The notes under the pieces are model-generated. The model saw nothing but the letters and a program-made list of their open reading frames with translations, was not told the DNA's origin and did not search any database. A stretch of 64,000 bases of DNA, from assembly GCA_033762255.1 (NCBI GenBank), contig JANRLT010000007.1, positions 124,001 through 188,000 on the forward strand. The letters run 5' to 3'. The DNA comes from Pirellulales bacterium (GTDB taxonomy: Bacteria > Planctomycetota > Planctomycetia > Pirellulales > JALHPA01). The position numbers and the translations under genes were made by a program. Shown here piece by piece: positions 4,580 through 23,554 of the stretch (position 1 is the stretch's first letter; the number at the start of each line of letters is the position of its first letter).

Positions 4580-5209
4580 ATGCGCGCACAGCTTTGTTGG
4601 CCGCTTATCTGTATCAAAGTCATCTTTGCCGGCGCGGCGGTGCTTGCGGGGAGTTGTCGTGTTGGCATCGCGGCCGAAATACGCGCCGGATCCCCCGCTT
4701 CCCTGGCTCCGCCCGCCGCGCAAATGATGCAGCTTCCCCCCGCTGTCCGCCAATGGTACCGCAATCCCGATGGCTCTTGCGTGCAATGCAGTATCGGCAT
4801 GTGCGGTGTCTGGTCCAACATTCCCGCCGCCAGCACCCTACTCTGGAACACCCCCTACGGCCCCGCGATCCGCGGCGGCTCTTGGCCCAGCCGTGTTAGC
4901 GACTACGCCCGTCGTCGCGGCATTCCCCTGTACAACATCACCGGCGCCACCACGCTGGATTGGCTGCGTTGGGCGGGACGGACGGGCCGATTTGCGGCCA
5001 TGGCCGCGGGGCCAGCGCACTTTCAAACGCTGTACGGCTATGACCCCGCGACCAACAGTTGGCAGGTCTGCAATAACAACTCCCCCCAACGGATCGATCA
5101 TTACTCCGACGCGCAATTTCGCCGCCTGCATGCCAGTGGCGGTCCCTGGGTGGTGATCCTAGATGCTCCGGCCAGTCCAGCCGTGCCGCAGTATCGCCGC
5201 TGGTGGTAG
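4580..5209 (+). CDS. secreted C39-like cysteine-peptidase-fold protein
   Basis: 209 residues. A Shine-Dalgarno AAGGGG lies just before the ATG. Residues 1-32 are a signal peptide. The mature part has Cys67 and Cys70 in GSCVQCSIGMCG, His147 in GPAHFQTLYGYDP, and Asn165-167 in CNNNSPQRIDHYSD. A Cys, a late His before a strand, and an Asn/Asp before a loop is the order of the papain-like C39_2 fold. The match is by eye only: the usual Gln before the Cys is unclear, so it may be a non-peptidase relative. It opens the co-oriented block that leads to the phage-head genes and may act on the cell wall or on exported peptides. Confidence 0.5.
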   Translation: MRAQLCWPLICIKVIFAGAAVLAGSCRVGIAAEIRAGSPASLAPPAAQMMQLPPAVRQWYRNPDGSCVQCSIGMCGVWSNIPAASTLLWNTPYGPAIRGGSWPSRVSDYARRRGIPLYNITGATTLDWLRWAGRTGRFAAMAAGPAHFQTLYGYDPATNSWQVCNNNSPQRIDHYSDAQFRRLHASGGPWVVILDAPASPAVPQYRRWW

Positions 5210-5230
5210 GTTTGCGCTAACCAGCGGCGA

Positions 5231-5299
5231 TCTACTACTCCACATCTCCTCTACTCCATTTCTAACCACTACCCACTAACCACCATCCACTTTCTTCCC
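5231..5299 (+). promoter_or_regulatory. 69-base G-free leader directly before the start codon
   Basis: From 5231 to 5299 there is not a single G; the sequence is made of C, T and A, ending TTTCTTCCC next to the ATG. No Shine-Dalgarno is possible in it. Related CU-rich leaders precede the terminase, portal, protease, capsid and LamG genes. Confidence 0.7.
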
Positions 5300-6622
5300 A
5301 TGCGACTCACATTCTGCTGCTTATTGTTTGTTCCCCTGTTGCAACTTGCGGCCCAAGTCACCACGGGGCCGGAAATTGACGTTCAAGAAATTCACCGTCG
5401 GGGTGATACCGTCGAGTATGTAACAGGGGACGCACAATCCACCGAAAGCGCCGCTTCCGAAACCGCGCTTGCGGCGCTGGCACCCCCCGCGGATGACGAC
5501 CACAAATGGTTTATCACCGTCATTAAGCAGGATAATTGTCCGCCGTGTCAGCAATTATTGACCGATCTGAGCCAGGATCCCCGGCTGTTGGCGTTTGTCC
5601 AGCCCGCCAAACCCCCAGAGTCCTGGGCTCACTTTAATGTGTATGCCCGCGAGGATGAAACGCAGGCCTGGCGATGGGAAAAAATTCGGTTGCGGGGTTA
5701 TCCCACGCTCTTGGTGCAACCCCCCCGCAACGGCCGCTATGGCCCAGCGGCTACGGTCGTCCTGCAAAAGACCGGTTATGGCGGTGATGCCGCCGCCTTG
5801 GCACGGCAACTCCGCACGGCGATCACCGACTATGCCACCAAACACCAGGCAACCCCGGCTGACGCGGCGCTGATAACCGGCGTATCGGCAAATACGCGGT
5901 CCAGCAATCACCTCCCCTTAATCACTGCCAACACGTTGATTCCCGATGAGCCGAGCGACCTCGGCAACGCAGCGCCTGCTCCATTTGCGCCTCCCGCGAT
6001 TCCCGAACCGCTACCTCATGATCCGGCGCCAGGGCCATTGGTCGTTCCTCCGCAGGTGGATCCGGACGCGCGTCCCGCGCCGCAACCTGATCCCGCTCCC
6101 ACACCATCCCCCGCGCCGCGAATCGCTCCCGCTGTCCCCGGTCCGTTCCCCCAACACCCCGAAGCGGTCGTCATTGTCGACAAATTCGCCGACAGTATGA
6201 CCGATGAGCGGACCTGGGCGCGCGTCCGCGCGGTATTGCAGCGGCTGCAAAAAGAACGCCCCGGCCTGATCGTGCGGCTGCTGGATATTCGCGACGCCGC
6301 GCAATATCCCATTTCCCCCGGCGAATTGCCGGCGGTCATCACCACCAGCGAAGGACGCATCGAAACCAAGCTCGACCGCCGCTTGCTGCCGCTCTTGCAG
6401 GCTGACCTGCAAACCTTTCCCTGGGAAGCATTACTCTCGTTTTTTACGCTCGGCTTTAACTGGGCCGGACTGGCGGCGATCGGCATTTGGCTGGCGGCGC
6501 TTGTTCGTCAATGGCGCAAGGCCCGCGGCCAGCGGTTATTACTCGATGAACAGTCGCTGTCGCAATTGCGCGAATTGCTGGCCAAACTGCTGAAAAGCGA
6601 TACGCCTCCCACAAATACATAA
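5300..6622 (+). CDS. secreted thioredoxin-fold protein with C-terminal membrane anchor
   Basis: 440 residues. Signal peptide (residues 1-18). Residues about 66-175 form a thioredoxin-like domain with the active-site-type motif NCPPC (Cys80, Cys83) and a later cis-Pro-like GYPTLLVQP. A long Pro/Ala-rich linker (about 215-290) follows, then a second alpha/beta segment that could be a degenerate thioredoxin fold (VVIVDKFADS ... LPAVITTS), then one membrane segment (about 380-401) and a basic tail. Predicted role: thiol-disulfide chemistry outside the cytoplasmic membrane. It begins 90 bases after the C39-like gene and may be co-transcribed. The CPPC dipeptide is unlike CGPC or CPHC, so the redox direction cannot be guessed. 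Confidence 0.6.
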   Translation: MRLTFCCLLFVPLLQLAAQVTTGPEIDVQEIHRRGDTVEYVTGDAQSTESAASETALAALAPPADDDHKWFITVIKQDNCPPCQQLLTDLSQDPRLLAFVQPAKPPESWAHFNVYAREDETQAWRWEKIRLRGYPTLLVQPPRNGRYGPAATVVLQKTGYGGDAAALARQLRTAITDYATKHQATPADAALITGVSANTRSSNHLPLITANTLIPDEPSDLGNAAPAPFAPPAIPEPLPHDPAPGPLVVPPQVDPDARPAPQPDPAPTPSPAPRIAPAVPGPFPQHPEAVVIVDKFADSMTDERTWARVRAVLQRLQKERPGLIVRLLDIRDAAQYPISPGELPAVITTSEGRIETKLDRRLLPLLQADLQTFPWEALLSFFTLGFNWAGLAAIGIWLAALVRQWRKARGQRLLLDEQSLSQLRELLAKLLKSDTPPTNT

Positions 6623-6680: not shown

Positions 6681-6878
6681 ATGACATGCGTGAATCATGC
6701 CGGTACAAGGTCCAATAAAAAGCCTTTACCCAAATCTCATCAGCGTATCCAGTCTGAGAAAACCATACCGCAATTGTTTCAGATTGTGATTGAATGTCCC
6801 GACGAACCCACACAAGCCGCGCTCTATGCGCAATTAAAAGCGCAAGGGCACCGCTTGCGGTTGATCGCATTCACTTAG
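6681..6878 (+). CDS. small conserved-type protein upstream of the ATPase-GNAT gene
   Basis: 65 residues. After a basic, Ser/Lys-rich N-terminus the C-terminal half (FQIVIECPDEPTQAALYAQL then GHRLRLIAF) has the strand-helix-strand pattern of a small domain I recall next to phage-type ATPase/ParB genes, where an ECxDExxQ motif is followed by a helix. A purine-rich sequence (AGAAAGAGA) lies before the ATG. It ends 41 bases before the next start, consistent with an operon. Function unknown. Confidence 0.55.
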   Translation: MTCVNHAGTRSNKKPLPKSHQRIQSEKTIPQLFQIVIECPDEPTQAALYAQLKAQGHRLRLIAFT

Positions 6879-6919
6879 CCCGCCACATTTCAGCCCGCAG
6901 CGTTAGCCAGGGACCATTA

Positions 6920-8083
6920 ATGATGCCTATTGAACCTCTATTGCCTTCCCTGCAATTGCACCTGCATCGGCAGACGCCACTGGCCGATTCCTTTCGCACG
7001 CGACAAATCGCCGGCCAGTATGGTCTGACATTGGCGGAGACTTTAACTGAATGCATCGTGTGTGATTTACCCGACCTCCGGCGGCCCTGGCGAATCGGGC
7101 TAATCACGGGTCCCTCGGGCAGTGGCAAATCTAGCGTCGCTCGGCAGTTATTTGGTGAAAGTGTTGCCACCCCGGCTGATTGGCCGCGCGACAGGGCCAT
7201 CATCGATAGCCTGGGCGAGTTAACCACCCGTCAGCTCGCGCGGTTGCTAACCGCCGTGGGGCTAGGGAGCATTCCGGCGTGGCTCAAGCCGTATCATGTG
7301 CTAAGCACCGGGCAGCGCTTTCGGTGTGATTTGGCGCATGCTTTTGCCAAGTCGGTCGCCGAACCCGGCAAAATGACATCCGTGGCAAAAGACCCACCGC
7401 CGATACCGACGGTGGTTTACGACGAGTTCTCTAGCACGATTGATCGGACCGCGGCGCGGATGGTGGCGGCGACAGTGGCAAAAGCGATACGCCGGGAGCA
7501 TCTTTGCTGTCGATTTGTCGCGGTCACCTGCCATGACGACGTGGCCGTGTGGCTTGCGCCGGATTGGACGTTGGATATGGGGACGGGACAATTCGCACGG
7601 AGGTCGCTTCGGCGGCCCCCCATCAGTTGCGAGATCTATCGTTATGACAACGGAGCCTGGCGGTTATTTCGCCACCATCACTATCTAAGCGGCAAGTTAT
7701 CGCCACAAGCGCGATGTTATGTCGCCCTGTGGAATAAGCGGCCCGTTGGATTTTGCGCGGTGTTACCGGCGCTTGGCCACCGCGGGCTATGGCGGATCAC
7801 GCGATTGGTGGTCTTGCCGGACTTCCAGGGCCTGGGGCTGGGGATGCGACTGGCGGAGGCGATAGCCGCGGGCTACCAGCGGCAGGGGCTGCGGATGAAC
7901 ATCTCCGGCGCGCATCCGGCGCTGATCGCGCATTGCCGCCGCTCGCCCTGCTGGCGTTGCACGGCGGTTTACAAGTATGGCCAACGCGGGTCGCCCGCAT
8001 TTGAAGGAACGTTTCGCGGTTCATACGGACGACCCACGGTAACATTTAGCTATGTGGGCGAGTGTAATCCTCTCACTCCGTGA
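6920..8083 (+). CDS. ABC-type ATPase fused to a GNAT acetyltransferase
   Basis: 387 residues from the ATG at 6920, which follows AGGGA; the frame is open further upstream but overlaps the preceding gene. N-terminal ABC ATPase: Walker A GPSGSGKSS (64-72), signature LSTGQ (128-132), Walker B VVYDEF (165-170) followed by the D-loop-like SSTIDR, and switch His in VTCHDD. The C-terminal third is a GNAT fold with the acetyl-CoA loop LPDFQGLGLGMRL near residue 300. There is no membrane segment, so it is a soluble ABC enzyme and not a transporter. Placed directly before the terminase genes it may modify or remodel a DNA-packaging or capsid component. Similar fusions occur in phages as far as I recall. 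Confidence 0.7.
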   Translation: MMPIEPLLPSLQLHLHRQTPLADSFRTRQIAGQYGLTLAETLTECIVCDLPDLRRPWRIGLITGPSGSGKSSVARQLFGESVATPADWPRDRAIIDSLGELTTRQLARLLTAVGLGSIPAWLKPYHVLSTGQRFRCDLAHAFAKSVAEPGKMTSVAKDPPPIPTVVYDEFSSTIDRTAARMVAATVAKAIRREHLCCRFVAVTCHDDVAVWLAPDWTLDMGTGQFARRSLRRPPISCEIYRYDNGAWRLFRHHHYLSGKLSPQARCYVALWNKRPVGFCAVLPALGHRGLWRITRLVVLPDFQGLGLGMRLAEAIAAGYQRQGLRMNISGAHPALIAHCRRSPCWRCTAVYKYGQRGSPAFEGTFRGSYGRPTVTFSYVGECNPLTP

Positions 8084-8087
8084 GAGG
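8069..8087. repeat. covarying palindrome, copy 1 (reverse orientation)
   Basis: CCTCTCAC-TCC-GTGAGAGG: 8-base stem, 3-base loop. The stop codon of the ATPase-GNAT gene lies inside its right arm, so the palindrome encodes the last residues of that protein. Confidence 0.8.
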
Positions 8088-8088
8088 A

Positions 8089-8145
8089 ACAGCGGGAATT
8101 TACTATAAAACAAGCATGATTTCCCGTAATGACCGCTGTTTTTTT
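8089..8145 (+). terminator. probable intrinsic terminator between the ATPase-GNAT and terminase genes
   Basis: Outer arms ACAGCGG (8089-8095) and CCGCTGT (8133-8139) enclose an inner pairing CGGGAA / TTCCCG and are followed by seven T (8139-8145). Inner and outer pairing share three bases, so two forms compete. It would make the head genes a separate transcription unit or give partial read-through. Confidence 0.55.
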
Positions 8146-8155
8146 AGACACCTGA

Positions 8156-8172
8156 ATCACACGGAGTGTGAT
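8156..8172. repeat. covarying palindrome, copy 2
   Basis: ATCACAC-GGA-GTGTGAT, 30 bases upstream of the small-terminase start codon. Confidence 0.8.
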
Positions 8173-8201
8173 GAGTACAACGCACCAGCGGGAGAATACG
8201 C

Positions 8202-8645
8202 ATGCCAGAATCCGCCGGGGCGGGCAAATTGACCAAGGCCAAACAGCAAGCGATCGGCACCATCTTGGCCGTGGGGGGAACGCTTAAAATGGCCGCCGAC
8301 CATTGTGGTTGCCTGGTCAAGGATATTAAAGCCGCTGCAAAAGCCGATCCCCGGTTTGCCACGCAACTGCGGCAATACCAGTTGCGGCCGCAGTTGGACA
8401 CGCTGACTTGCTTATTCACCGCCGCCCGCGATCCCAAACAGTGGCGCGCCGCGGCCTGGGCGCTCGAACGAATGTATCCGGCGCGCTACGGTCCCCGCAA
8501 GGCTGACACACTCACCCGCGTGGAACTTGCTCGATTTGTCAAGCACCTGGTCAAAATCCTGGCCGCCGAAATACCCCAGGCACGCACGCGGCAGCGTATT
8601 GAACGTCAATTAGCTGAATTGATGACCGCGCATGGACCGCATTAA
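8202..8645 (+). CDS. terminase small subunit-like DNA-binding protein
   Basis: 147 residues, Shine-Dalgarno GGGAGAA 6 bases before the ATG. The N-terminal third reads as a helix-turn-helix (KQQAIGTILAVGGTLKMAAD ... VKDIKAAAKADPRF), in which a disappearing-phase gap and the xIxxAAxxDPxF ending are typical of homeodomain-like small terminases. The middle part has AAAWALERMYPARYGP, the W-x-L-(E/K)-R-x-x-P-x-x(W/Y)G motif common after the HTH in that family. Position directly upstream of the large subunit supports the call. It should recognise the packaging start on DNA. Confidence 0.7.
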   Translation: MPESAGAGKLTKAKQQAIGTILAVGGTLKMAADHCGCLVKDIKAAAKADPRFATQLRQYQLRPQLDTLTCLFTAARDPKQWRAAAWALERMYPARYGPRKADTLTRVELARFVKHLVKILAAEIPQARTRQRIERQLAELMTAHGPH

Positions 8646-8716
8646 GAATAACCCCTTTACATTTTCAGTGCGGACGGCACTTATTCTGGCTCGCAACTTT
8701 TTCTCCGCGTTTCCCT

Positions 8717-10315
8717 ATGGTATTTTTCAACTCTATGCAACGCCGATTGCTAGGGCAAATACAGTCCGAATGGCAAGAACGGCTTATCGTCGGAAAGCGA
8801 TCGCGCGGTACGCGGCGGCGGCGTCAGCGCGAGGCAAATCTGCTGAATTGGGGGCGATACTATCTGCCAGAGCACTTTCGCCGGACGCCGTCGCATCTGC
8901 ACACCTGGCTGGCGGAATGGTTGGATCAACCGCGGAACAATGGCTGGCGGCTAAATGTGCTGGCTCCCCGCGGCGCGGCAAAATCCACGCTGGTTACGCT
9001 GGCCTATGTCCTGCGCACGGCGCTAACCGGTCAGGTGCCGTTCATCTGGATTGTCAGCGACACCCGCGCTCAGGCCGCCGGGCATCTGGCCAATCTGCGG
9101 GCGGAGCTAACCTGCAACACACGCCTGGCACGCGCGTACCCCGTGACCTGCGGCGCGGGACCAGTCTGGCGCGCGATGCAACTGCAACTGCGCAATGGCG
9201 TCACCCTAGAGGCAATCGGCACCGGTCAACGCGTCCGGGGCAAACGCCACCGCGCCGCCCGCCCCGGATTGATACTCTGCGATGATTTACAAAATGATGG
9301 GCATGCCTTGTCGCCGCGATTGCGCGAGCTTTCCCGCCGTTGGTTCTTTGGCATGTTGCTCAAGGCTGGAACCAAGCGGACAAACATCGTCAATCTGGCG
9401 ACGGCGCTGCATCGGGACGCGCTCGCGCTCGAGCTGACGCGCACCGCCGGCTGGCAGTCACGCACCTTTGCCGCTATAGAAAAGTGGCCCACGCGGATGG
9501 ATCTCTGGGCGGCCTGGGAGCGGATTTATTGCAATCGCGATCTGCCCGATCCGGCGGCCGACGCGCTGCGATATTATGAGGAACATCAAGCGGAGATGGA
9601 GGCGGGCGTGGAACTCTTGTGGCCCGCCGAGGAAGACCTGTACACGCTGATGCGGCAGCGGTGCGAAGGGGGCCGCGTCGCGTTTGACCGCGAAAAGCAA
9701 AATATCCCCGCCAACCCCGACAGTTGCGAATGGCCCGCCGAATACTTTGGCGATCATCTGTGGTTTGACGAATGGCCACGCGACGCGCGGGTGCGGGCGA
9801 TCGCCATTGATCCCAGCAAGGGACGCACGGACCGCGTTGGAGATTACTCGGCCATTGTGCGTCTGGCGATCGATCCGCGCGGTGTGGTCTATGTGGCCGC
9901 GGACTTGTCGCGCCGTACCACCGAAATCCTGGTCGCCGATGGCATCGCCTGGTACCGGCAGTTTCAACCCCAGGTGCTAGGCATCGAGGCCAATCAATTT
10001 CAAGAACTACTGGCCGCGCAATTGATTGCCGAGCTGACCCGCCAGGGCCTCCCCGCCATTCCCGTGATCCCCGTTGAAAACACCCTGGCCAAGGTAGTGC
10101 GCATCCGTCGCTGGGGGCCGCTGCTTGCTCAGCAGCGCGCACGGTTTTTAGCAAATTGCCCCGGCACAAAGCTGCTGGTCGAGCAATTGCGGGACTTTCC
10201 GCATGGCGCGCATGACGACGGACCCGACGCGGCGGAACTGGCCCTGCGCCTGGCCTGCGAATGGTTAACCGAACCAGCCGCCGACGGCCTGGGAGGCAAT
10301 CTACTAAGGGGATAA
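8717..10315 (+). CDS. phage terminase large subunit (packaging ATPase-nuclease)
   Basis: 532 residues, normal length. ATPase: Walker A LAPRGAAKST (about 82-91), Walker B LILCDD (185-190), then the coupling segment NIVNLATALHRD. RNase-H-like nuclease: AIDPSKG (Asp near 363), GIEANQF (Glu near 423), and HDDGPDAAELAL (Asp near 498-502); all three acidic positions of the family are present, so it looks active. The alternative ATG at 8735 (MQRRLLG) is equally possible; neither has a Shine-Dalgarno and the bases before 8717 are pyrimidine-rich. It starts 71 bases after the small subunit. Confidence 0.9.
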   Translation: MVFFNSMQRRLLGQIQSEWQERLIVGKRSRGTRRRRQREANLLNWGRYYLPEHFRRTPSHLHTWLAEWLDQPRNNGWRLNVLAPRGAAKSTLVTLAYVLRTALTGQVPFIWIVSDTRAQAAGHLANLRAELTCNTRLARAYPVTCGAGPVWRAMQLQLRNGVTLEAIGTGQRVRGKRHRAARPGLILCDDLQNDGHALSPRLRELSRRWFFGMLLKAGTKRTNIVNLATALHRDALALELTRTAGWQSRTFAAIEKWPTRMDLWAAWERIYCNRDLPDPAADALRYYEEHQAEMEAGVELLWPAEEDLYTLMRQRCEGGRVAFDREKQNIPANPDSCEWPAEYFGDHLWFDEWPRDARVRAIAIDPSKGRTDRVGDYSAIVRLAIDPRGVVYVAADLSRRTTEILVADGIAWYRQFQPQVLGIEANQFQELLAAQLIAELTRQGLPAIPVIPVENTLAKVVRIRRWGPLLAQQRARFLANCPGTKLLVEQLRDFPHGAHDDGPDAAELALRLACEWLTEPAADGLGGNLLRG

Positions 10316-10428
10316 AAGTCCGCAAGGTGAGACAAGTCCGTGGGGGGACAAGCCGAAATAATCAACGCTCGGGCCATTACTTCACGACCGCGATGTCCCA
10401 CAGAATGACACGACATAGAACATGCATT

Positions 10429-10557
10429 GGGCCGTTGGCCCACATGAACAGAGTCACGTTAATGTCTGGTTCCATTTTACTGAATACCAGCAACCAAAAA
10501 CCATATTCCTAAAACCACTCCTCCGTACTCCATTTCTCCATACTCCACTACTGCACC
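10429..10557 (+). promoter_or_regulatory. intergenic element: GGCC hairpin and CU-rich leader before the portal gene
   Basis: A GGGC-CGTTG-GCCC hairpin at 10429-10441 is followed by a leader (10490-10557) with only two or three G in about 68 bases and repeated TACTCCA / TCTCCA units ending at CACC-ATG. The same order, hairpin then CU-rich leader, occurs before the LamG gene. Confidence 0.6.
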
Positions 10558-11916
10558 ATGCCCTCCCCAATTTCCCAACGCCTGACCGAAGCTTGGTCCG
10601 CGCTACTCGACACCCTGGTCGATCCGCACGAGCCGTTCCTGGACGATGCCTCCGCCGCCTGGCTGCCGCTCGCCAGTGATGCCGCGCCTGGCGACATGAC
10701 GATCCCATCCGCCGCGCAGTTACAAGAAACCCGCAATCATTGCCGGATGCTGGCCCTTACTAATGAATTTGCCATCAATGGGCATGAAAACCGGATTAAC
10801 TTTATCGTCGGGCCGGGGCATTCTTATCGCGTGACGGCGGTTCGCGGCCAGCAGCCCGCGCGGACGCTGCTACTGGACGCGATGCAAGAGCTGAATCGCT
10901 TCTTGCGGGAAAATCAGTGGCCGCTGCGCCAGGCCGAGATTGTTCGCCGCCGCGACCGCGATGGCGAGGTCTTTCTGCGCTTCTTTACCAGTCCCGCCGG
11001 TGTCCTGCAATTGCGGTTTGTCGAACCGGCCGCGGTGGCCACGCCCCCCCGCTATGCCGCGCAACCGGGTGTGCGGCTGGGGATCATGACTCTCCCCCAG
11101 GATGTTGAGACCGTACAAGCGTATTTGATTGACGGGAGCATCGTTCCCGCGGATGAAATTCAGCATCGCAAGCTAGGGGTCGATGCCAATGTGCTGCGCG
11201 GGATGCCGCTATTTTATCCAGTACGCAAGAATCTGCGCCGTGCCGAAAAGCTGCTGCGGAACATGAGCACCGTGGCCGAGATTCAATCGGCAATCGCGTT
11301 GATTCGCAAGCATCGGGCGGCGGGACGCGGCGGAGTGGAGGCCTTTGTGGCGGGACAAGCCGATGCCACCGCGCCGAACATGGGAAGTGGCGGCGGTGCG
11401 CGCAGCCGAACATGGCAGCATTTTTCGCCGGGGACCATCTTGGACGCTCCCGGCAGCATTGAATATGAATTTCCCGCCGCGCAACTTAACGCCGGCAGTT
11501 ATGTCGCGATATTGCAGGCGGAACTGCGGGCGATTGCCAGCCGGCTGGTCATGCCAGAATTTATGCTAACGAGCGACGCCTCCAACGCAAACTACAGCTC
11601 GACGATGATCGCCGAAGGTCCGGCGATGCGCATGTTCGCCCGCCTCCAGGCGGAGCAAGTCGCGGCTGACCAGGTCGTGCTAGAAAAAGCACTGCAAACG
11701 GCCATCACGGCGGGCCGTCTGCCGCGGGACACGCTGGAATTGTGCGAAATTACCGCCGTGCCGCCATCGCTGGCCGTGCGCGATCAACTGCAAGAAACAC
11801 AACGACGCAGAATTGAATATCAAAGCGGCATCTTGTCCGCGCAAACCTGGTCGCAGCAGACGGGCTTGGACTATGACCAGGAACAAGCCTTACGGAAAGC
11901 CCACGCGGCAATTTAA
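10558..11916 (+). CDS. phage portal protein
   Basis: 452 residues, usual size for lambda-type portals. Features of the family: an early helix with NHCRMLALTNEFAINGHENR, the wing segment around IVRRRDRDGEVFLRF, the RGMPLFYPVRKNLRRAEKL helix, a flexible Gly-rich stretch (about 275-290), and the late LVMPEFMLTSDASNANYSS segment where portal proteins carry their P-x-x-L-(S/T)-x-D-x-(S/T)-x-AN motif. It would form the dodecameric DNA channel at one capsid vertex and bind the terminase. The start is preceded by no Shine-Dalgarno. Confidence 0.85.
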   Translation: MPSPISQRLTEAWSALLDTLVDPHEPFLDDASAAWLPLASDAAPGDMTIPSAAQLQETRNHCRMLALTNEFAINGHENRINFIVGPGHSYRVTAVRGQQPARTLLLDAMQELNRFLRENQWPLRQAEIVRRRDRDGEVFLRFFTSPAGVLQLRFVEPAAVATPPRYAAQPGVRLGIMTLPQDVETVQAYLIDGSIVPADEIQHRKLGVDANVLRGMPLFYPVRKNLRRAEKLLRNMSTVAEIQSAIALIRKHRAAGRGGVEAFVAGQADATAPNMGSGGGARSRTWQHFSPGTILDAPGSIEYEFPAAQLNAGSYVAILQAELRAIASRLVMPEFMLTSDASNANYSSTMIAEGPAMRMFARLQAEQVAADQVVLEKALQTAITAGRLPRDTLELCEITAVPPSLAVRDQLQETQRRRIEYQSGILSAQTWSQQTGLDYDQEQALRKAHAAI

Positions 11917-12135
11917 GCCCGGCGCGTATTAGCCCGCAGTGCCTTAGCCCGCAGCGTTAGCAAGGGACGGAAGGCGGGAGACGAGAGACGGGAGGCGAGA
12001 GACGAGAGACGCGACATCAGCCCACAGCGTCAGCCTGTGTCAACACGTCCCCTATCGGCGACAGAGTCGCCTCCTACAGATCCCTCGCCGCCGCCTCGGA
12101 CTATCAACTTACTTTTTCCTTTTTTCACAGCTACT
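11917..12135. repeat. intergenic REP-like repeats upstream of the protease gene
   Basis: AGCCCGCAGCGTTAGCAAGGGAC at 11946-11968, then purine-rich near-repeats (GGCGGGAGACGAGAGACGGG) to about 12015, then a second repeat family with CGGCGACAGAGTCGCCTCCTA around 12057-12077 (self-complementary core GGCGAC/GTCGCC). The last 30 bases before the ATG at 12136 are pyrimidine-rich. Confidence 0.6.
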
Positions 12136-13104
12136 ATGTCCACTTCAGAAAACTTGATTGAATACGCGGCGGCGTTATCCGCCACCAGCCGGATCGATCG
12201 CGCGGCGAATTGCCTGCGCGGAGTAAAGGTGCTTGGTTTAAACTCTACCAACGGACGGCAATACACGCCGACCGCGCTCGAACAAGCCGTCCCCCTCTAT
12301 GCCAATGGCAAGGTAAACATCAACCACCCCAAGGGGGCGCCGCACGGTCCACGCGATTACCAAGACCGGTTGGGGCATTTACAAAATGTCCGCTACGAAC
12401 CCGCGCGGGGCTTGTACGCCGATTTGTGCTACAACCCCCGGCATCCATTGGCGGAACAACTGCTATGGGATGCCGAGCACGCGCCTAGCCAGGTCGGTTT
12501 GTCGCATAATGTCATGGCGCGCACGCGGCGAGAGGGAGAGACGCTGATCGTGGAGGAGATTTTATCCGTGCAAAGCGTGGACCTGGTGGCTGATCCCGCC
12601 ACGACGCGCGGCCTGTTTGAAGCGGAGCCTTCTCCAACCCTCGAGGTTATCGCTCCAGCCGCGCAACTCGCGCTTTTAGAGGCCGATAATCAGCGTTTGC
12701 AGGCGGAACTGCAATCTGCCCAAACCGCCGAACGCCTGGCCCGGCGGCGCTTGCTCATCGCCCGCGCGCTGCGCTCCGCGGGTTTGCCCGATCCCGCGGA
12801 AGCCCGTGGGCCGGCGCGGGCGATTGTGGATGATGCCTGGCTAGAGGCCCTGGAAAATGCATCGTGTGACGAGGATGTGCGGGAACTGGTCCGCGCCCGC
12901 GCGGAGCTATTGTGGGAGGCGCGGCGTTGGGGGACGGAGCTTGCCACACAAGGATCCTCTGCCTGGGAACCATGCAAGAGCGCTGTTTTTCTTAACCTTC
13001 CCCGTTCGCGCGAGCAAGGGTCTGAGCCGGGAGGGCCCGCGGAAATATCGACAACCAGCCGGGGCAAGGCATTCGCCAGGGCGTTGCTTATGGCGGGGCG
13101 GTGA
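12136..13104 (+). CDS. capsid maturation protease fused to a scaffold-like coiled coil
   Basis: 322 residues from the ATG at 12136; an upstream ATG at 12037 would translate repeat DNA. Residues 1-165 match phage head proteases of the Mu-I/U35 type: VKVLGLNSTNGRQYTP, GKVNINHPKG (His-containing strand), LGHLQNVRYEPARGLYADL, QVGLSHNVMA (Ser in the S-H segment) and SVQSVDLVADPATTRGLFE near 160. A probable coiled coil (about 180-225, LLEADNQRLQAELQSAQ) and an acidic helical part follow, as in protease-scaffold fusions. Its place between portal and capsid genes is the canonical one. It would assemble and then process the procapsid. Confidence 0.7.
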   Translation: MSTSENLIEYAAALSATSRIDRAANCLRGVKVLGLNSTNGRQYTPTALEQAVPLYANGKVNINHPKGAPHGPRDYQDRLGHLQNVRYEPARGLYADLCYNPRHPLAEQLLWDAEHAPSQVGLSHNVMARTRREGETLIVEEILSVQSVDLVADPATTRGLFEAEPSPTLEVIAPAAQLALLEADNQRLQAELQSAQTAERLARRRLLIARALRSAGLPDPAEARGPARAIVDDAWLEALENASCDEDVRELVRARAELLWEARRWGTELATQGSSAWEPCKSAVFLNLPRSREQGSEPGGPAEISTTSRGKAFARALLMAGR

Positions 13105-13108
13105 TTTT

Positions 13109-13278
13109 AGCCCGACGCGTCAGCGAGGGACCTGTAGGAGGCGACTCTGTCCCCGATATTACCCGACGCGTCAGCGAGGGATCTGTTGGTGACTCTGTCG
13201 CCGAAATGGCTGGCGTTGTCCCTTGCTTACGCTGCGGGCTGAATGATTATCTCCCCTGCTTACGCTGCGGGCTGAATT
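13109..13278. repeat. cluster of four REP-like repeat copies
   Basis: Forward copies AGCCCGACGCGTCAGCGAGGGA at 13109-13132 and 13161-13181, each followed by CTGT and a TGACTCTGTC/GCGACTCTGTC segment, and reverse copies CCTTGCTTACGCTGCGGGCT at 13219-13244 and 13253-13278. The inverted pairs can fold against each other. It fills the space between the protease and decoration genes. Confidence 0.75.
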
Positions 13279-13346
13279 TGCTGCGAGATGTCTGATCCAA
13301 AATTCTTTTGTTCTGACTGCACACTTTACTCTAAGGAACCTGTTTT

Positions 13347-13820
13347 ATGGCAAACATGATGCGTTGGCGTTATGGCGACACGCAACCGGTGATGCTGCCG
13401 GTTGATTCGGCCACAGTGATTGAGATTGGCGATTTGGTTTATCTGGATACCGATGACGCCAAACCAGCCGGATCCCAGGCCGATGCCGGCACCGAAGCCG
13501 CCAATCAAGAAGCCTTTCACGACAAGTTCGCCGGCGTGGCCCTGCAACGGTCCCGCGCGGGCGATACCGCGCCGGTGCGCGTGGCCACGCGGGGCGTCTT
13601 TGAATTTGATTGCCCCTCCACCGCCTGCGAGGTCGGCGCGCTCTTTGGAGCCAGCGAAAACTCCGGCGGAACCGCGCTGCTCAACCAGCAAATCGAAACC
13701 GTCGCCACGGTCAATCTGGCGGTCGGACGCTGCGTGCAGCGAAATTCTCCCGCGGGGACCAAGGCCTTGATCGAGATCGTCAGCACCGTCGTGCATGGCG
13801 GCCCGCAACCCGTGGCGTAA
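13347..13820 (+). CDS. capsid decoration-type protein (DUF2190-like)
   Basis: 157 residues with a Shine-Dalgarno AAGGA 9 bases before the ATG. It is an all-beta sequence: SATVIEIGDLVYLDTDD, FAGVALQRSRAGDTAPVRVATRGVFEF, CEVGALFGASEN, VNLAVGRCVQRNSPAGTKALIEI. The order of a G-D-x-V-Y strand, a G-V-A-L strand with x-x-G-D, and a late AVG-R-x-V strand is that of small phage head proteins such as DUF2190 and lambda gpD relatives. Directly before the major capsid gene, it probably stabilises the mature shell. Confidence 0.65.
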   Translation: MANMMRWRYGDTQPVMLPVDSATVIEIGDLVYLDTDDAKPAGSQADAGTEAANQEAFHDKFAGVALQRSRAGDTAPVRVATRGVFEFDCPSTACEVGALFGASENSGGTALLNQQIETVATVNLAVGRCVQRNSPAGTKALIEIVSTVVHGGPQPVA

Positions 13821-13887
13821 GCAGATTTGAGATTTGCAAATTTCCAATTTCAGATTTTGCAACTAAATCCATAAACCAAAATCGTTT

Positions 13888-13935
13888 CATCACACGGAGT
13901 GTGATGATTACGTATTCCTCTCACTCCGTGAGAGG
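13888..13935. repeat. covarying palindromes, copies 3 and 4, side by side
   Basis: CATCACAC-GGA-GTGTGATG at 13888-13906 and CCTCTCAC-TCC-GTGAGAGG at 13917-13935, in opposite orientation, 10 bases apart, between the decoration and capsid genes. Confidence 0.85.
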
Positions 13936-14003
13936 ATCTGCATGAAGGGCTTTTGAGGCAGAACAATCATTTATCCCTTCGAGGAGCAACCTTTTTTCAT
14001 TTT

Positions 14004-14022
14004 CATCACACGGAGTGTGATG
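14004..14022. repeat. covarying palindrome, copy 5
   Basis: CATCACAC-GGA-GTGTGATG, 31 bases upstream of the capsid ATG. Between it and the ATG lies a CU-rich leader with very few G. Confidence 0.85.
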
Positions 14023-14053
14023 ATCACATTTCTCCAACCTTCACTACGACTCC

Positions 14054-15211
14054 ATGACTATTTCCTATCGTGAACTGAAACGTCGTTATGACCTTGATGG
14101 GCCGGCGGCCACGGTATCGCATTTACGAGCGGCATTGACCGAACGGCATCTCCAACCCACGGATTTTTCCCTGCGCGATCTGGCGGAAAGCCTGATCCCC
14201 GATGGGGGGGAATGGGTCCGCGCGCTTGACCCGCGGCAGAGCGCCGGCGTGGCGCTTTTGGAAGCGGGTGACGGCGTCGACTTGACGGCGTTCCTCAACG
14301 TGACCGGCCAAATCATCTACAACCGCATCCTGGATGCCTACCGCCACGAAAGCTTTGTCATGTCGCGGCTGGTCGAGACCATTCCTACTCGTCTGGATGG
14401 CGAAAAGCTCCCCGGCGCGGCGAATCTGGCCGACAGCGTGACGGAAATCGCCCCCGGCATGCCCTACCCCCATGCCGGCTTTGGCGAGGATTATATCGAA
14501 ACGCCCAGCACCGCCAAACGGGGCCTGATCGTGCCGGTCACGCGCGAGGCGATCTTTTTTGACCGCACGCATTTGGTGTTGCAGCGGGCCGGCGAAGTGG
14601 GCGAAATCCTGGGCCTCAATAAAGAAAAACGCTTGCTGGATGTCGCGCTAGGCGTGACGAACAACTACAAGTGGCGCGGTGCAAGTCATAACACTTATCA
14701 AACCAGCACGCCCTGGAAGAATGTCCTTTCCACGAATGAGCTGGTCGATTGGACGGATATTGACGCCGCCGAACAACTGCTGGCCGAAATGCTCGACCCC
14801 AACACCAACGAGCCGATCCTGATTCAGGCGAATAGCATTTTGGTCATGCCCGCCTATCGCCACATCGCGCAACGGGTCGTCGGAGCCACGTTTATCGAAC
14901 AAGCCGATGGATCCAGCAACACCCGCGCGCCCAACCCGCTGGCCAACTATCGCGTGTATGACAGCCGCCTGGCGTATCGGCGGTTGGTCGCTAGTGGCGT
15001 GGCGGCGGACACAGCCAAAAAGCACTGGTATCTGGGCGATTTTCGCAAGGCGTTTGCCTATATGGAAAATTGGCCGATCACCGTGACTCAATCCGCGGTC
15101 GGCAGCGAGGCGGACTTTGCCCAGGATATTGTCCTGCGGTTTAAAGCCAGCGAACGGGGCGCGGCGGCGGTACTCAATCCGCGCTGCGTTATCAAATGTT
15201 CCGCCCCTTAA
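14054..15211 (+). CDS. major capsid protein (HK97-type)
   Basis: 385 residues. An N-terminal helical segment (about 1-70) is followed by a body with segments typical of HK97-fold capsids: FLNVTGQIIYNRILDAYRH, KRGLIVPVTREAIFFDRTHL (the P-loop/N-arm strand region), the long spine-like helix RAGEVGEILGLNKEKRLLDVALG, PILIQANSILVMPAYRHIAQ and a C-terminal strand FAQDIVLRFKASERG. No close family name is certain, but the position after protease and decoration genes and the length fit. No Shine-Dalgarno precedes the ATG; a pyrimidine-rich leader does. It is likely the most abundant product of the block. Confidence 0.8.
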   Translation: MTISYRELKRRYDLDGPAATVSHLRAALTERHLQPTDFSLRDLAESLIPDGGEWVRALDPRQSAGVALLEAGDGVDLTAFLNVTGQIIYNRILDAYRHESFVMSRLVETIPTRLDGEKLPGAANLADSVTEIAPGMPYPHAGFGEDYIETPSTAKRGLIVPVTREAIFFDRTHLVLQRAGEVGEILGLNKEKRLLDVALGVTNNYKWRGASHNTYQTSTPWKNVLSTNELVDWTDIDAAEQLLAEMLDPNTNEPILIQANSILVMPAYRHIAQRVVGATFIEQADGSSNTRAPNPLANYRVYDSRLAYRRLVASGVAADTAKKHWYLGDFRKAFAYMENWPITVTQSAVGSEADFAQDIVLRFKASERGAAAVLNPRCVIKCSAP

Positions 15212-15229
15212 CGCGGCTCCCGTGTCAGC

Positions 15230-15262
15230 GCGGACAAGGGACCAGGTCGGTCCCTTGTCCGC
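15230..15262 (+). other. perfect hairpin directly after the capsid gene
   Basis: 14-base perfect arms GCGGACAAGGGACC and GGTCCCTTGTCCGC with loop AGGTC, 18 bases past the capsid stop codon, without a T-run. It could protect the capsid mRNA 3' end or end transcription in a Rho-assisted way. Confidence 0.6.
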
Positions 15263-15304
15263 CGTGACGGTCAAGTAGTTGTGAAAGCGTTAGATTCGAG
15301 TAGG

Positions 15305-15328
15305 GCAAATCAGCCGCTGGGCGCTAGC
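15305..15328. repeat. dispersed repeat (AAATCAGCCGCT / GGCGCTAGC family)
   Basis: The same 24 bases with one change occur in the opposite orientation at 41597-41620, far outside this block, so this is a genome-wide family and not part of the phage-like cassette. Confidence 0.6.
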
Positions 15329-15406
15329 CCTCGGTTGCTGCCGCACCAAACGCGGGCTATCGCCCGCACGATAATCTGCACTGCAAATTTTTGCAAAGGA
15401 GCAACC

Positions 15407-15730
15407 ATGCGTATTCGACGAGCCACGCTGGCTTTTATAAACGTGAATGTCTCGGCCACATTGGCGGAATGTACCGAGTTGGACCTGCGAGAGGCGGCGG
15501 CAGGATCGGTGCTGATCCCCTCGGGTTCTGGCCTGACCACACTGACCCCCTATGCCGCGCGCGAGCCGGGGGGAACGTATCTGCCGCTATATGATGCGCA
15601 GGGCCTGGCGGCGGCCTGGACCGTGGCGGCTGGGCAATGCCATCCCTTGCCCGAGGCCGTGGCCGCGGTTGGCGCGCTGAGGTTGGTGGGGAACACCACA
15701 GGCAGCGTGGAAGTCGTGCTCAAGGGGTGA
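15407..15730 (+). CDS. small head-associated protein of unknown function
   Basis: 107 residues from the ATG at 15407, which has an excellent Shine-Dalgarno (AAAGGAGC). The frame is open further upstream but that part is a repeat. The sequence is hydrophobic-beta with Ala/Gly runs: TLAFINVNVSATLAECTELD, AAGSVLIPSGSGLTTLTPY, YLPLYDAQGLAAAWTV, ALRLVGNTTGSVEVVLKG. The pattern suggests a small beta-sandwich, as in head fibre or minor decoration proteins. Its place between capsid and LamG genes fits that. I recognise no family. Confidence 0.55.
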   Translation: MRIRRATLAFINVNVSATLAECTELDLREAAAGSVLIPSGSGLTTLTPYAAREPGGTYLPLYDAQGLAAAWTVAAGQCHPLPEAVAAVGALRLVGNTTGSVEVVLKG

Positions 15731-15762
15731 TTTGATTTCAGATTTGTGAAAGAGTTATGCTC

Positions 15763-16024
15763 GGAATTCAATACCGTTCGTCGCGAAATCCTCCTTACTA
15801 AATATCAACAGCCAAATACCACACTCCATTGCTGCAACCACTGTAGACGATGAATCGGGCCGTTGGCCCTGCCATTTTGAATTTAATCTAACCTAGGGCG
15901 ACGCTGCGCTTGCCCTAGGCTGGGATAGGTCCGGCCGTTGGCCCGCAAGAATTCAATACCGTTTGTCGCTAGACCCTCCTTACCAAAAACCAAAAGCCAT
16001 ACTCCATTCCTCCATACCCCCACC
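15763..16024 (+). repeat. duplicated leader DNA with a CCTAGGGC hairpin
   Basis: GAATTCAATACCGTT followed by TCGC and CCTCCTTAC occurs at about 15764 and again at about 15949; each copy continues into an A/C-rich stretch with ACTCCATT motifs. Between them are GGGC-CGTTG-GCCC (15857-15869) and a hairpin CCTAGGGC...GCCCTAGG (15892-15919). The second copy ends at the LamG start codon. Confidence 0.65.
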
Positions 16025-17503
16025 ATGCCCCCATCCCATTTGCAGCTTCGAGCGCGAGCGTTTGATCCGCGACGTTTTCGGCAATTACAGCTTTGGCTGG
16101 ATCCCCGCTGGACGAATGGCATGCGGCTGAGCCGCGTGGCCGAATTTCGCCGCGCGACGGGCGCGTACCTGAGCACTCCCGCGGCGGCCCCTTTGCAGGC
16201 CACGACAGCCTTGACGGTGGAGTTCTGGAAAAATAGCGTCAGCCTGGGATTGGATCGCGCTTATGTCGGCCATGGGTCATATAACACCAGCGGGGGAGGA
16301 GGCTGGAATATTAGTAGCGGCGATGGAGTAAACGGCGGCAACTCCATCAAGGTCTACCTGGCGCTGAACGCCAACTTTTCGGTAATCGCCTCGGGCGTGA
16401 CACCCCAAGCGACATTGGCCGCCGACTGGTCCCAATGTGTCGTCGTCTATAACGGCGGTGGCGCTACCTCCGCCGATCGACTGAAGGTTTACCTGGATGG
16501 CGTGGCTCAGTCGTTGACCTTTAGCGGGACCATTCCCGCCACGCTCTTTTTGCCGACGGTCCCCCTGGAGGTGGGTCGGTTCGCGGGCTTGCCCGGTCGT
16601 GAACTGGACGCCGGTATGCAGCGATTACGCTTGTGGACCGTGGCCTTATCCGCGGCGCAGGCCAGCGCGCTATATAACACCGGCGCGGGACACAGCCATG
16701 CCCAACTCGCGGGGATTTCTGGCTTAGCCGCGCCGGCCGCGGCGTGGGAATTGCAAGAATCCAGCGGCGCGCGCGCGGACTCTGGCCCATCTGGGTTAAC
16801 CTTGCAACAACAAAATGGGACCGTGGCCAGCGGTTTACTAACCACCGAGGTACGCGACCGCGGACCGCGACAATTGGTGCTAACCGCTCCGCTGGGCACC
16901 GCCCCCCGCTGGTCGGAAAGCGAGATCACGGGGAAACCCGGTTGGCGCACGCATGGGCGGCAGTTTCTTAGCGGCACAATCAGTGATTGGCTAACCGCGC
17001 CGACGGGGGATCTGCTGCAAGTGGCGGTCCCCCTCGCGCTCGAAAGCGCGCCCGGCTCTCCTTATGATCACGGGCTATTGGCCAGCGGAGTTAGCGGCAG
17101 TACGGACCGTTATGCGTTTAGCTTATTTTACAAGGACACATCCAATGTGCTAACGCCGCGCCTGCGAATACGCAACCAAAGCGCGCCGAATGGCTTTGTG
17201 ATTGGCAACTCGGCGTTAACCCTGGGTCAGCGGTATGTGCTGAATTGGCGGGGAGCGACGGGCGGGACCGATGGTTATGCCCTGCGCCTCAATGGGCAGG
17301 CCGTGGGCTTGACGGTCCAAAGCGGTCTGGCGAATACCTGGTTTGACGATGTACCGGCGCGGGATAAAGTCGCGCTGGGGGCATTTATCACCGGGGCGAT
17401 TGTTCAAGGGATGGGCCAATACCAGTTTGGCCAGCAACTCGCCTTTGGTCCCGGCCTCAGCCAGAGCGCCAACCGCGCGGCGGAGCGTTGGCTGGGAGTT
17501 TAG
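16025..17503 (+). CDS. LamG/concanavalin-like surface protein of the phage-like block
   Basis: 492 residues from the ATG at 16025; translation upstream would read through the CU-rich leader (SHTPFLHTPT). Residues about 60-240 form a LamG-type jelly roll: LTVEFWKNS, YLALNANFSVIA, WSQCVVVYNGGG, LKVYLDGVAQSLTFSG, LEVGRFAGLPGRELDAGMQR, LRLWTVALSAAQASALYNTG. A second, looser beta domain follows (about 300-480) with QRYVLNWRGATGG and YALRLNGQAVGLTV, probably another jelly roll. There is no signal peptide, so it is cytoplasmic until release: a head fibre, tail-spike substitute or receptor-binding protein is likely. The last 30 residues resemble a C-terminal capping helix. Confidence 0.7.
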   Translation: MPPSHLQLRARAFDPRRFRQLQLWLDPRWTNGMRLSRVAEFRRATGAYLSTPAAAPLQATTALTVEFWKNSVSLGLDRAYVGHGSYNTSGGGGWNISSGDGVNGGNSIKVYLALNANFSVIASGVTPQATLAADWSQCVVVYNGGGATSADRLKVYLDGVAQSLTFSGTIPATLFLPTVPLEVGRFAGLPGRELDAGMQRLRLWTVALSAAQASALYNTGAGHSHAQLAGISGLAAPAAAWELQESSGARADSGPSGLTLQQQNGTVASGLLTTEVRDRGPRQLVLTAPLGTAPRWSESEITGKPGWRTHGRQFLSGTISDWLTAPTGDLLQVAVPLALESAPGSPYDHGLLASGVSGSTDRYAFSLFYKDTSNVLTPRLRIRNQSAPNGFVIGNSALTLGQRYVLNWRGATGGTDGYALRLNGQAVGLTVQSGLANTWFDDVPARDKVALGAFITGAIVQGMGQYQFGQQLAFGPGLSQSANRAAERWLGV

Positions 17504-17639
17504 TTTACGGTGTATGGTATATGGTTTTTCGAAATCGAGGGTGGGACAAGCGGTGCGCGGACATGTAATACGTGCCAGCGTAATCAGCGCACTCTTCCCC
17601 GCGTGCTGCAATTCTAAGCATGGACTATAAAGCATAAAA

Positions 17640-17658
17640 CATCTCACGGAGTGAGATG
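17640..17658. repeat. covarying palindrome, copy 6
   Basis: CATCTCAC-GGA-GTGAGATG, 45 bases upstream of the next ATG, again followed by a CU-rich leader. Confidence 0.85.
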
Positions 17659-17703
17659 AATACAGTTCTCCACTTCTCTATTACTTCATCCTTCACACCG
17701 CCC

Positions 17704-17916
17704 ATGACAGATACTCAACAATACGCGTTGATCAAGAGCTTATGCTTGCAGCAGCTTGCGGATTTACGTTTTTCACCGAAGCCGACCTATGAACTTGATG
17801 GCCAGCGCGTGGCGTGGGAGAGTTACGCGCTGTCGCTGCAACAGACGGTGGATTGGTGCGACCAAAAGCTGCGCGACCAGGAGGTGTACGAGGTACAATC
17901 CGCGGGGTTAACCTAA
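17704..17916 (+). CDS. small protein of the phage-like block, unknown
   Basis: 70 residues from the ATG at 17704; the frame continues upstream into the palindrome and leader, so this start is preferred. Helical, moderately acidic, with YALSLQQTVDWCDQKLRDQE. I recall a small YxLxxxxLxxL-type head-tail connector or spacer in such positions, without being able to name a family. No Shine-Dalgarno is present. Confidence 0.5.
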   Translation: MTDTQQYALIKSLCLQQLADLRFSPKPTYELDGQRVAWESYALSLQQTVDWCDQKLRDQEVYEVQSAGLT

Positions 17917-17954
17917 ATTGTGATACGTACCGGTTTTTCATAGCATAGGATAGC

Positions 17955-18284
17955 ATGATGGCGACATTTGATCCCACGACGGACTTGCGGTTGGTGGCGG
18001 ATTTGCAGCAACAGGTGACGTTGCGGCGGTTTGACACATTGGTGGAGGAGGTGATCCCCCACGCGCTGCACCGCGCGCTGAGTTTATCATTGCTTAACCA
18101 GGTCAATGGGATGATTCACGGCGAAGACGCGCGGTTTCACCTTTTGGAACTGACCGACATTGCCCCGCCCCGGCCAAATGATCAGATTATTGACGCCGAG
18201 GCGCGGCGGTGGCTGATTCGCGAGGTGCAGTACGCGGTCGAGGGTTCGCGTTGGTCGTGCCTATGCCGGTTGATAGAAACTTAA
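17955..18284 (+). CDS. small protein at the 3' end of the phage-like block, unknown
   Basis: 109 residues (one fewer from the second ATG at 17958); AGGATAG precedes the start. A helical N-terminal half (LRLVADLQQQVTLRRFDTLV) and a later LLELTDIAPPRPNDQIIDAEARRW segment. It ends 17 bases from the stop of the convergent CinA-C/NadD gene and so closes the block. No family recognised; tail or connector genes would be expected after this point in a complete phage and are absent. Confidence 0.55.
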   Translation: MMATFDPTTDLRLVADLQQQVTLRRFDTLVEEVIPHALHRALSLSLLNQVNGMIHGEDARFHLLELTDIAPPRPNDQIIDAEARRWLIREVQYAVEGSRWSCLCRLIET

Positions 18285-18301
18285 CTATGCCAAAAGCGGG
18301 C

Positions 18302-19549
18302 TTAGGGGGACGCGGGACTGGCCGTCTCCGGGTTGGGAGGGATCAATTCGGAGTCCAACCGCAGATCGGTGGAAGAGACATCCATGCGAAAATCGGCTTC
18401 CGGGACTTCGATGCACAGGGCGAGCAATTCGGGGGGCAGTTGCAATTGGCTGACGGATTCAAATTTGTTATCGCGCGGATTGCGCCGTCCAAAGACCAAA
18501 AACCGGCAACCGGCGGCGGCGATTTCAGCCAAGGACGCGAGCATCTCGGCGGTGGAACCGCCGTAATAGCGCGGCTGGCCGATGCGTTCGACGGTATCGG
18601 CCCCCACGATAAAAGTAGCTCCGGTAAAGAGCCGCGATTTTTCGACAAAGGTGGGAGCAGCGGTTAGCCATAGGCACTCGCTTTTGGTGAACTGCGCGGC
18701 GCGTTCAGCGATGGTTGTGTAATCGAGCGGGGGTTTTTCCACGTTGACCAGGCTGATTTCCCATTCTACGGGCAAGTCCAGCCGCTGCGCCGCGTACACG
18801 GCCATGGCGGTGTGTCCGGTGTGGCGCGGCTCAAAGGATCCGGGAAAAACCAATCTCGCGCCGGAGAGTGTTTGTTCGGAAGTGACGCGTTCCAGGCCGT
18901 GGCTAGCGCAGGCGCGCAGCCTGCCGCCAATGACATCGCGCCAGGCGGGAAGGCCGGTGGTCAGTTTGGCGACGATATGTTCCCCCTCGAGCAGGGTGGG
19001 CGCGTACGCCGTGGCAACACCGGCGGCGCGGGCCAGTCCCGCCAGCAACAAGTCCGCCACCACGCGTTCTTCTTGTTCGCGGTCGCGTTCCCCCTTGCGC
19101 AGTTCCAGCGACCAGGAACCGGTTTCTTCCCAGGTCTGCCAGGCGACATGCATGCGGTGCGCGCCATGCTTGACACGGCTGCTAATAAGTCCGGCGGTGG
19201 CCGCCAGACCGATCACCGGGAGAAAAGGGGAAACCGGCCGGGGGGGCGAATCCTGCAGCAAAAGCTCTTCCCGCGCCAGGGAGAGCGCCTCCCGCCAGGC
19301 CGCCATGCCCATTTGCCGCGCGGTGCGCACACTGCAAAATTGCCCCGGTGTCGCCAACAAATACCGGCCGAGCGCCGTCGCCGAGTAGGGAACATGCGCG
19401 GCTAATAGCATTTTCGCGGATCCGGGGACCGAAAGCAGGTCGGAGATCGCCAGCGAGCCACCCCCCGTGACCGTAATAACCGTCGGGGCGCACGATTTGT
19501 GCAACTGATGAATCAAGCGGTTGCGGCCGAGATGCGTTTCGCTGCTCAT
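18302..19549 (-). CDS. CinA-C domain fused to a NadD-like nucleotidyltransferase
   Basis: 415 residues from the ATG at 19549. Residues about 1-190 resemble the CinA C-terminal (nicotinamide-nucleotide amidase) domain: TVTGGGSLAISDLLSVPGSA, YSATALGRYL, GLAATAGLISSR, HRMHVAWQTW. Residues about 215-405 are a HxGH nucleotidyltransferase: LVFPGSFEPRHTGHTAMA gives the ATP-binding loop, and MDVSSTDLR is the family's C-terminal SxTxxR motif. Known members of this kind act in NAD turnover; an NMN deamidation followed by adenylylation would be a direct link but that is inference. The usual Gly-x-(D/N) at the HxGH start is replaced by SFEPRHTGH. Confidence 0.7.
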   Translation of the reverse strand: MSSETHLGRNRLIHQLHKSCAPTVITVTGGGSLAISDLLSVPGSAKMLLAAHVPYSATALGRYLLATPGQFCSVRTARQMGMAAWREALSLAREELLLQDSPPRPVSPFLPVIGLAATAGLISSRVKHGAHRMHVAWQTWEETGSWSLELRKGERDREQEERVVADLLLAGLARAAGVATAYAPTLLEGEHIVAKLTTGLPAWRDVIGGRLRACASHGLERVTSEQTLSGARLVFPGSFEPRHTGHTAMAVYAAQRLDLPVEWEISLVNVEKPPLDYTTIAERAAQFTKSECLWLTAAPTFVEKSRLFTGATFIVGADTVERIGQPRYYGGSTAEMLASLAEIAAAGCRFLVFGRRNPRDNKFESVSQLQLPPELLALCIEVPEADFRMDVSSTDLRLDSELIPPNPETASPASP

Positions 19550-19833
19550 AGCAGTTGGTATACCCCAAATGCGGGGCGATTTACCAGGGGAACTGCCCAA
19601 AAGCGGTCAAGTCACCCGAAATCCGCCCCCTGGTGGATGAATCTTTTTTATAGGACAACTTTGCGGAAAGGGCAACGCGCGTTAAATTTATAATCACGCT
19701 TTAGCCGGCGGCCAACTCAAAATCCCCTATATTGCCCCGTGGGGCAGGCGCATGCCGCGAAAATTTTTCATGGACACGCGTCGTTTGCACGACTTACAAA
19801 TTTGCACGACTTACTTTGTCGCGGGAAGTTGCC

Positions 19834-23533: not shown

Positions 23534-23554
23534 AGATAAGAGTGCCCACCGAAA

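Follow-up and report, generated by a model that had tools for sequence, protein, structure and literature searches.

A phage-derived head and packaging gene cluster without tail genes in a Pirellulales genome, and its relatives across the order

Described systems and the cassette in the window

GTAs of the RcGTA type, which are viriforms, are built on phage-derived head and packaging genes that occur in single copy, carry a vertical signal, evolve under purifying selection, have their parts distributed over several loci and come without mobility genes. The tail is a defining part of the known GTA particles (PMC11841831). FpGTA I of Faecalibacterium, whose tails are not identifiable, forms proven particles that package host DNA, and its cluster encodes short-tail-type proteins (PMC12946183). 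Capsid-forming PICIs encode capsid, portal, protease, terminase and connectors of their own and no tail genes, and these mobile satellites use tails supplied by a helper (PMC10690885). Encapsulins are defined by an HK97-fold shell and cargo loading (PMC8346489). As for GTA clusters, Redfield and Soucy argued that gene transfer and recombination cannot explain their persistence (PMC6209664). The literature searched, which took in neither subscription papers nor preprints, yielded no account of a GTA from Planctomycetota, so that a domesticated cluster present throughout an order of this phylum would be a new, independent case.

The window analysed here is a stretch of 64,000 nucleotides from the genome of a Pirellulales bacterium (G000; genomes, families and loci are numbered G, f and L). 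Its positions 6681-18284 hold an intact head-packaging gene set, collinear on one strand and with all frames open (Table 1). A first-pass annotation had described head genes in canonical order, in a single orientation and with intact ORFs, and family profiles together with the ORF list bear this out. The cassette had been taken to begin at 6681. The head set is real, and of its first ORF only the C-terminal end of a ParB-like gene is left (tblastn with residues 165-196 of a relative's ParB, E 4e-4; phrog_28816, 6.7e-7), a gene that is complete in relatives and precedes the ATPase-GNAT gene there. Besides most of ParB, the window copy is without the small c9 gene. Its composition is that of the host, with a GC3 of 0.679 in the cassette versus 0.673 in the other genes of the window.

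Table 1. Features of the cassette, with positions in the window.
Feature	Position	Strand	Basis and remarks
ParB-like stub, 65-aa ORF	6681-6878	+	overlaps ATPase-GNAT start
ABC-type ATPase + GNAT acetyltransferase fusion	6794-8083	+	phrog_11143 3.2e-88, Acetyltransf_7; start at 6941 favoured by coding potential
Terminase small subunit (TerS)	8202-8645	+	phrog_4102 4.2e-6; syntenic in relatives
Terminase large subunit (TerL)	8717-10315	+	phrog_38 4.6e-73; Terminase_6C
Portal, lambda type	10558-11916	+	PF05136 (Phage_portal_2) 3.8e-17; phrog_21 5.5e-30
Prohead protease, scaffold-like C-terminus	12037-13104	+	NHP / GLSH / VDLVADP motifs; phrog_29592 3.6e-6 (weak profile match); start likely about 12154
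Head decoration (cement) protein	13347-13820	+	PF09956 (Phage_cement_2) 9.7e-8; phrog_122
Major capsid protein, HK97 type	14054-15211	+	PF25209 (Phage_capsid_4) 6.3e-13; 55-70% identity to 18 relatives
Small protein u149	15281-15730	+	likely start 15404; cluster u149 in L135, L121
LamG/concanavalin-like protein	15938-17503	+	virion structural phrog_19943 6e-4
Small conserved protein u86	17656-17916	+	likely start 17704, 70 aa; adjoins connector gene u109
u109, single stopper/head-completion-like domain	17955-18284	+	equals N-terminal half of relatives' two-domain protein
Right border	18285-18301		second stopper domain and all tail genes missing; converging host gene 18302-19600 next

Two small genes gave no family match in profile searches: u149, common to the window, G001 and G033, whose product is possibly a capsid-surface protein, and u86, found in 38 of the 79 loci compared. 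Homologues of the LamG protein sit at the equivalent place in relatives' clusters, and this protein is probably a capsid-surface lectin.

The ATPase-GNAT gene had been singled out as the cassette's own. The gene is there, and it is not special to this locus, since nearly all relatives have it and it also occurs in 50 phage records, in some of which, such as Gordonia phages, it is among the first genes; it is a component of the inherited phage module. The model of its product (pLDDT 85) has an N-terminal domain that matches the ABC ATPase fold (E 5e-8), with Walker A, signature and Walker B mostly invariant among 31 sequences. A role in packaging would be a guess. A sequence search of the PDB with the ATPase-GNAT protein or the capsid returned no match.

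No integrase, repressor or regulator gene was found in the cassette or its flanking genes, and no lysis gene was recognised in the cassette or adjoining it. Directly upstream (4580-6622) are two collinear secreted-looking genes, for a 209-aa protein with Cys, His and Asn motifs and a thioredoxin-like protein, which are absent beside the cluster in relatives. Elsewhere in the window, the minus strand carries three tandem paralogous genes (20977-24928) for secreted proteins of about 400-457 aa, outer-membrane-barrel-like by eye, and an IS3-like integrase-core transposase ORF (36945-37892, by eye) unrelated to the cassette.

Compared with the described systems, the window has the head and packaging genes of a GTA and no tail, which about half of its relatives do have. 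Because a tail was searched for and not found, we leave the element in the window outside the GTAs; its tailed relatives are good GTA candidates. The cluster shares with RcGTA-type elements the traits listed above apart from the tail, with purifying selection seen in relatives. It differs in a likely separate origin, suggested by its lambda-type portal and order-specific distribution, and in the loss of any tail in the window and two other families. FpGTA I resembles it in its unidentifiable tails, whereas no tail gene at all was found here. As in the capsid-forming PICIs, head, connector and terminase genes are its own; unlike them, it has no integrase or other mobility genes and follows the host phylogeny. 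Encapsulins, too, are HK97-type shells kept by the cell, but the window has portal, terminase and prohead protease, which are not known as parts of encapsulins.

A cluster found throughout the order

Searching other Pirellulales genomes for the same gene order, as the first-pass annotation had proposed, showed that the cluster recurs throughout the order. Among 57 relatives, 38 have a TerL match (45-59% identity, E below 1e-110) and 42 a capsid match (E below 1e-140), the capsid being single-copy in nearly all; genomes of the order without the element altogether also exist. Beyond the order, the capsid has weaker relatives only (14 of 294 genomes of the phylum at E <= 1e-30, of which 4 lie inside the order), and viral contigs yielded just five relatives of TerL, all distant. 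The reported integrity of the TerL Walker A, Walker B and nuclease residues was confirmed: the Walker A K/S/T, Walker B D and nuclease D/E/D positions are kept in 37-38 of 38 genomes, and the window TerL keeps them. The H, S and D of the protease are invariant in 37 relatives, and all three are present in the window copy.

The full layout in relatives begins with a secreted-protease module, followed by ParB, ATPase-GNAT, TerS, TerL and portal, then by c9, protease, decoration protein, capsid, surface proteins, u86 and u109, and finally by tail terminator, c15, tail tube, c19 and fibre-like genes. It ends at HTH24, a host regulator gene on the opposite strand. HTH24 forms the right end of the cluster in eight families (f20, f13, f2, f15, f9, f3, f19 and f7), which points to a single ancestral site. 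The window copy sits at another site, among host genes. In f19, f15, f9, f10, f11, parts of f18 and G036, the cluster is divided after the portal into a module A, from ParB to portal, and a module B, from protease to tail, and both parts are kept. The survival of such a two-locus split fits a resident system acting in trans, and would be unexpected for a mobile phage. The secreted-protease module upstream of ParB depends on the family and consists of a subtilase S8 with c11 and c12, or of a trypsin with c17 and c16 (examples are L049 16916-19998 and L047 121-3125).

Tail loss, inheritance and selection

Two unrelated tail modules occur across the family. The first, made of terminator, c15, tube and c19, is present in about half of the genomes (tube in 24/58, c19 in 30/58), and the second, a phrog_290 tail protein with its partner, was found in G014, G029, G046, G021, G011 and f16. 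In relatives with the first module, a tape measure could be recognised neither between tube and c19 nor farther along the loci read; L049 (2204-7077), L044 and L052, for instance, have the terminator, tube-like and c19 genes without a recognisable one. Among 80 more capsid loci from another collection, partly of the same organisms, 34 carried a tail of the first type and 2 one of the second, and 16 showed none. Ten of these 16 end directly at the HTH24 gene, and the 16 include, as seen at the level of the locus, the named isolates Bythopirellula polymerisocia, Aeoliella straminimaris and Botrimarina colliarenosi.

Profiles for tube, c19, c15 and the two proteins of the second module had no match in the 5.47-Mb genome G000, and PhageMin_Tail and Sipho_tail found nothing there either, so that a tail of these kinds at another locus of this genome was rejected. 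Elsewhere in a genome there could be tail genes of families other than the ones covered by these profiles. Both modules are matchless genome-wide, with head genes present, in eight genomes: G000, four of f7 and three of f19. They were also unmatched in G001, which keeps c15, and in G009 and G030, all three being limited by their assemblies. Within f7, intact heads without a tail extend over four genera.

The absence of tail, lysis and integrase genes reported at first therefore holds beside the cassette, and for tails it is genome-wide within the reach of the profiles used. Conserved tail or integrase genes close by had been named as evidence against a domesticated particle. No integrase was found; tail genes are lacking in the window, and their conservation near the cluster in about half of the relatives means that taillessness is derived by loss and that the family is not tailless by origin. 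Since f1, the family of the window, and f19 stand apart from f7 in the RpoB tree, the tail was lost at least twice.

Known GTAs scatter accessory genes over the genome (PMC11841831), the cluster occupies two loci in several of the families studied, and two unrelated tail modules already exist in the family. The cassette might accordingly be part of a full GTA with its tail encoded elsewhere, by genes unrelated to the profiled ones. We consider this improbable, as the genome matches neither tail module nor the two general tail families, and as the outer stopper domain, on which a tail would be mounted, is missing.

Distances between head genes followed those between host RpoB sequences, with Mantel r of 0.51 for TerL, 0.52 for portal, 0.64 for capsid and 0.60 for ATPase-GNAT (p 0.001), and 0.26 for the protease (p 0.02). 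In a tree built from the TerL, portal and capsid sequences, ten families (f3, f7, f9, f10, f13, f14, f15, f18, f19 and f20) form clades, and within f10, f18 and f19 the internal order equals that of RpoB. Deep branches are poorly resolved and disagree with RpoB, and G000 and G001, of the window's family, are not sisters; some exchange between families is possible. The Mantel correlations and family clades show vertical inheritance of the cluster with its host, up to these deep branches.

In close pairs, dN/dS of head genes was 0.03-0.34, leaving aside one f7 pair from different genera (G024/G048, 0.25-0.56), which is not comparable as RpoB itself gave 0.19; all these figures are rough because dS is often 0.8-2, near saturation. 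For the tailless same-genus pair G019/G035 (f19), values were 0.057 for TerL, 0.056 for portal, 0.041 for capsid and 0.11 for protease, with 0.036 for RpoB. Head genes are no faster in tailless than in tailed genomes (p 0.46-0.91). In relatives, tailless ones included, the dN/dS comparison of terminase, portal and capsid that had been suggested indicates purifying selection on the head genes, whereas in the window lineage, for which a close relative is absent from the set, the genes are fast.

Single copy, vertical signal, split loci and purifying selection together support the earlier idea of a domesticated DNA-packaging particle without a tail, the best supported of the three readings then offered, with the difference that it applies to an order-wide family and not to this locus alone. 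Our preferred reading, to which we assign a probability of about 0.6, is that a phage captured by a Pirellulales ancestor has been passed on vertically as a domesticated, GTA-like element, that the cassette represents its head half, and that the tail was lost and the head kept here, in f7 and in f19. It rests on gene content, synteny, vertical signal, split loci, tail loss, active sites and selection in relatives. A satellite-type element, another of the three, is not supported, given the absent mobility genes (neither integrase nor repressor) and the vertical signal of an order-wide distribution.

Decay of the window copy still has to be considered, because its head genes are fast and because ParB and c9 are lost. 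By mean distance it ranks 34/35 for TerL, 32/37 for portal, 30/35 for capsid, 32/32 for protease and 34/34 for ATPase-GNAT, whereas its genome is ordinary for RpoB (15/36). The window could then hold a remnant of the order-wide element in which the tail went first and ParB and c9 after it, the head frames being open by chance. The losses, which also include the second stopper domain, the rapid head genes and the existence of genomes without the element all agree with this. Every head frame is nevertheless open with its active-site residues retained, the f19 pair, from a family whose three genomes are all tailless, has its head genes under strong purifying selection, and f7 heads are intact over four genera. 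Ordinary decay therefore appears unlikely to us. The 'dull' alternative of the first-pass annotation, a prophage remnant with lost tail genes, was right on history and, in those lineages that allowed a test, wrong on decay.

The connector and the proposed heads

The u109 protein of tailed relatives is about 210 residues long and has two domains, as seen in a model of a full-length relative (pLDDT 89), in which both domains resemble neck stopper/head-completion proteins. For the N-terminal half the match is 2kz4 (Z 11.1, rmsd 3.1, 96 aligned), and for the C-terminal half it is the RcGTA particle protein 6tba_3A (Z 11.2, rmsd 3.1, 103 aligned), a further likeness between tailed relatives and RcGTA; sequence search with the C-terminal half gave 2kz4 and SPP1 gp16 at E 0.012-0.23. 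The window's protein was placed on this model by an alignment of 33 sequences, in which it and those of nine relatives end at the domain boundary. In the window, the short protein retains a single stopper-like domain, which could close the portal, and is without the part expected to contact a tail. As a strict mark of taillessness the short form was rejected: it is shared by genomes with the second tail type and by the related prophage L055, and some tailless f7 genomes keep the long form.

Under our preferred reading, the most probable mechanism is that capsid, protease and decoration protein assemble a procapsid on the portal, which TerS and TerL would load by headful packaging. The cargo would presumably be host DNA, because replication and mobility genes are absent from the cluster and several families have it divided between two loci. 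The one stopper-like protein left would seal the portal, giving DNA-filled heads unable to inject, which may be released from the cell. Candidate benefits are DNA export to competent neighbours or to the surrounding matrix, or an intracellular role. Going further, we propose, tentatively and at somewhat less than even odds, that the order domesticated a phage and that several families cut it down to a tailless, sealed DNA-packaging head, held under lasting selection for a benefit other than injection. The tailless branches matter more than the new order-wide case: if the proposal is true, packaging was kept under selection and injection discarded, which would separate packaging from transfer, and the question of persistence would become testable, including in the named isolates with a tailless locus.

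Alternatively, a head-only system might borrow its tails from resident prophages or helper phages. Its gene set is of the PICI kind, with head, connector and terminase genes and tails to be supplied by a helper (PMC10690885), relatives contain related prophages with head genes of their own, and some f7 members retain the two-domain stopper though without tail genes. For the window we judge this very improbable: the outer stopper domain, where a tail would naturally dock, is missing, its own genome has no tape measure or Sipho_tail gene, integrase and regulator are absent, and the distribution is vertical, not mobile. Borrowing from a second phage-like element of G000 (contig C4) was rejected, since in that element the portal is shortened, an integrase directly follows the capsid gene and the 18.7 kb covered carry no tail gene. 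This locus (L077, 3-13741) also encodes a serine recombinase, a tyrosine integrase, ParB-like genes, a protease-capsid fusion and a 766-aa terminase. Related elements with longer structural regions are found in G026, G009 and G042.
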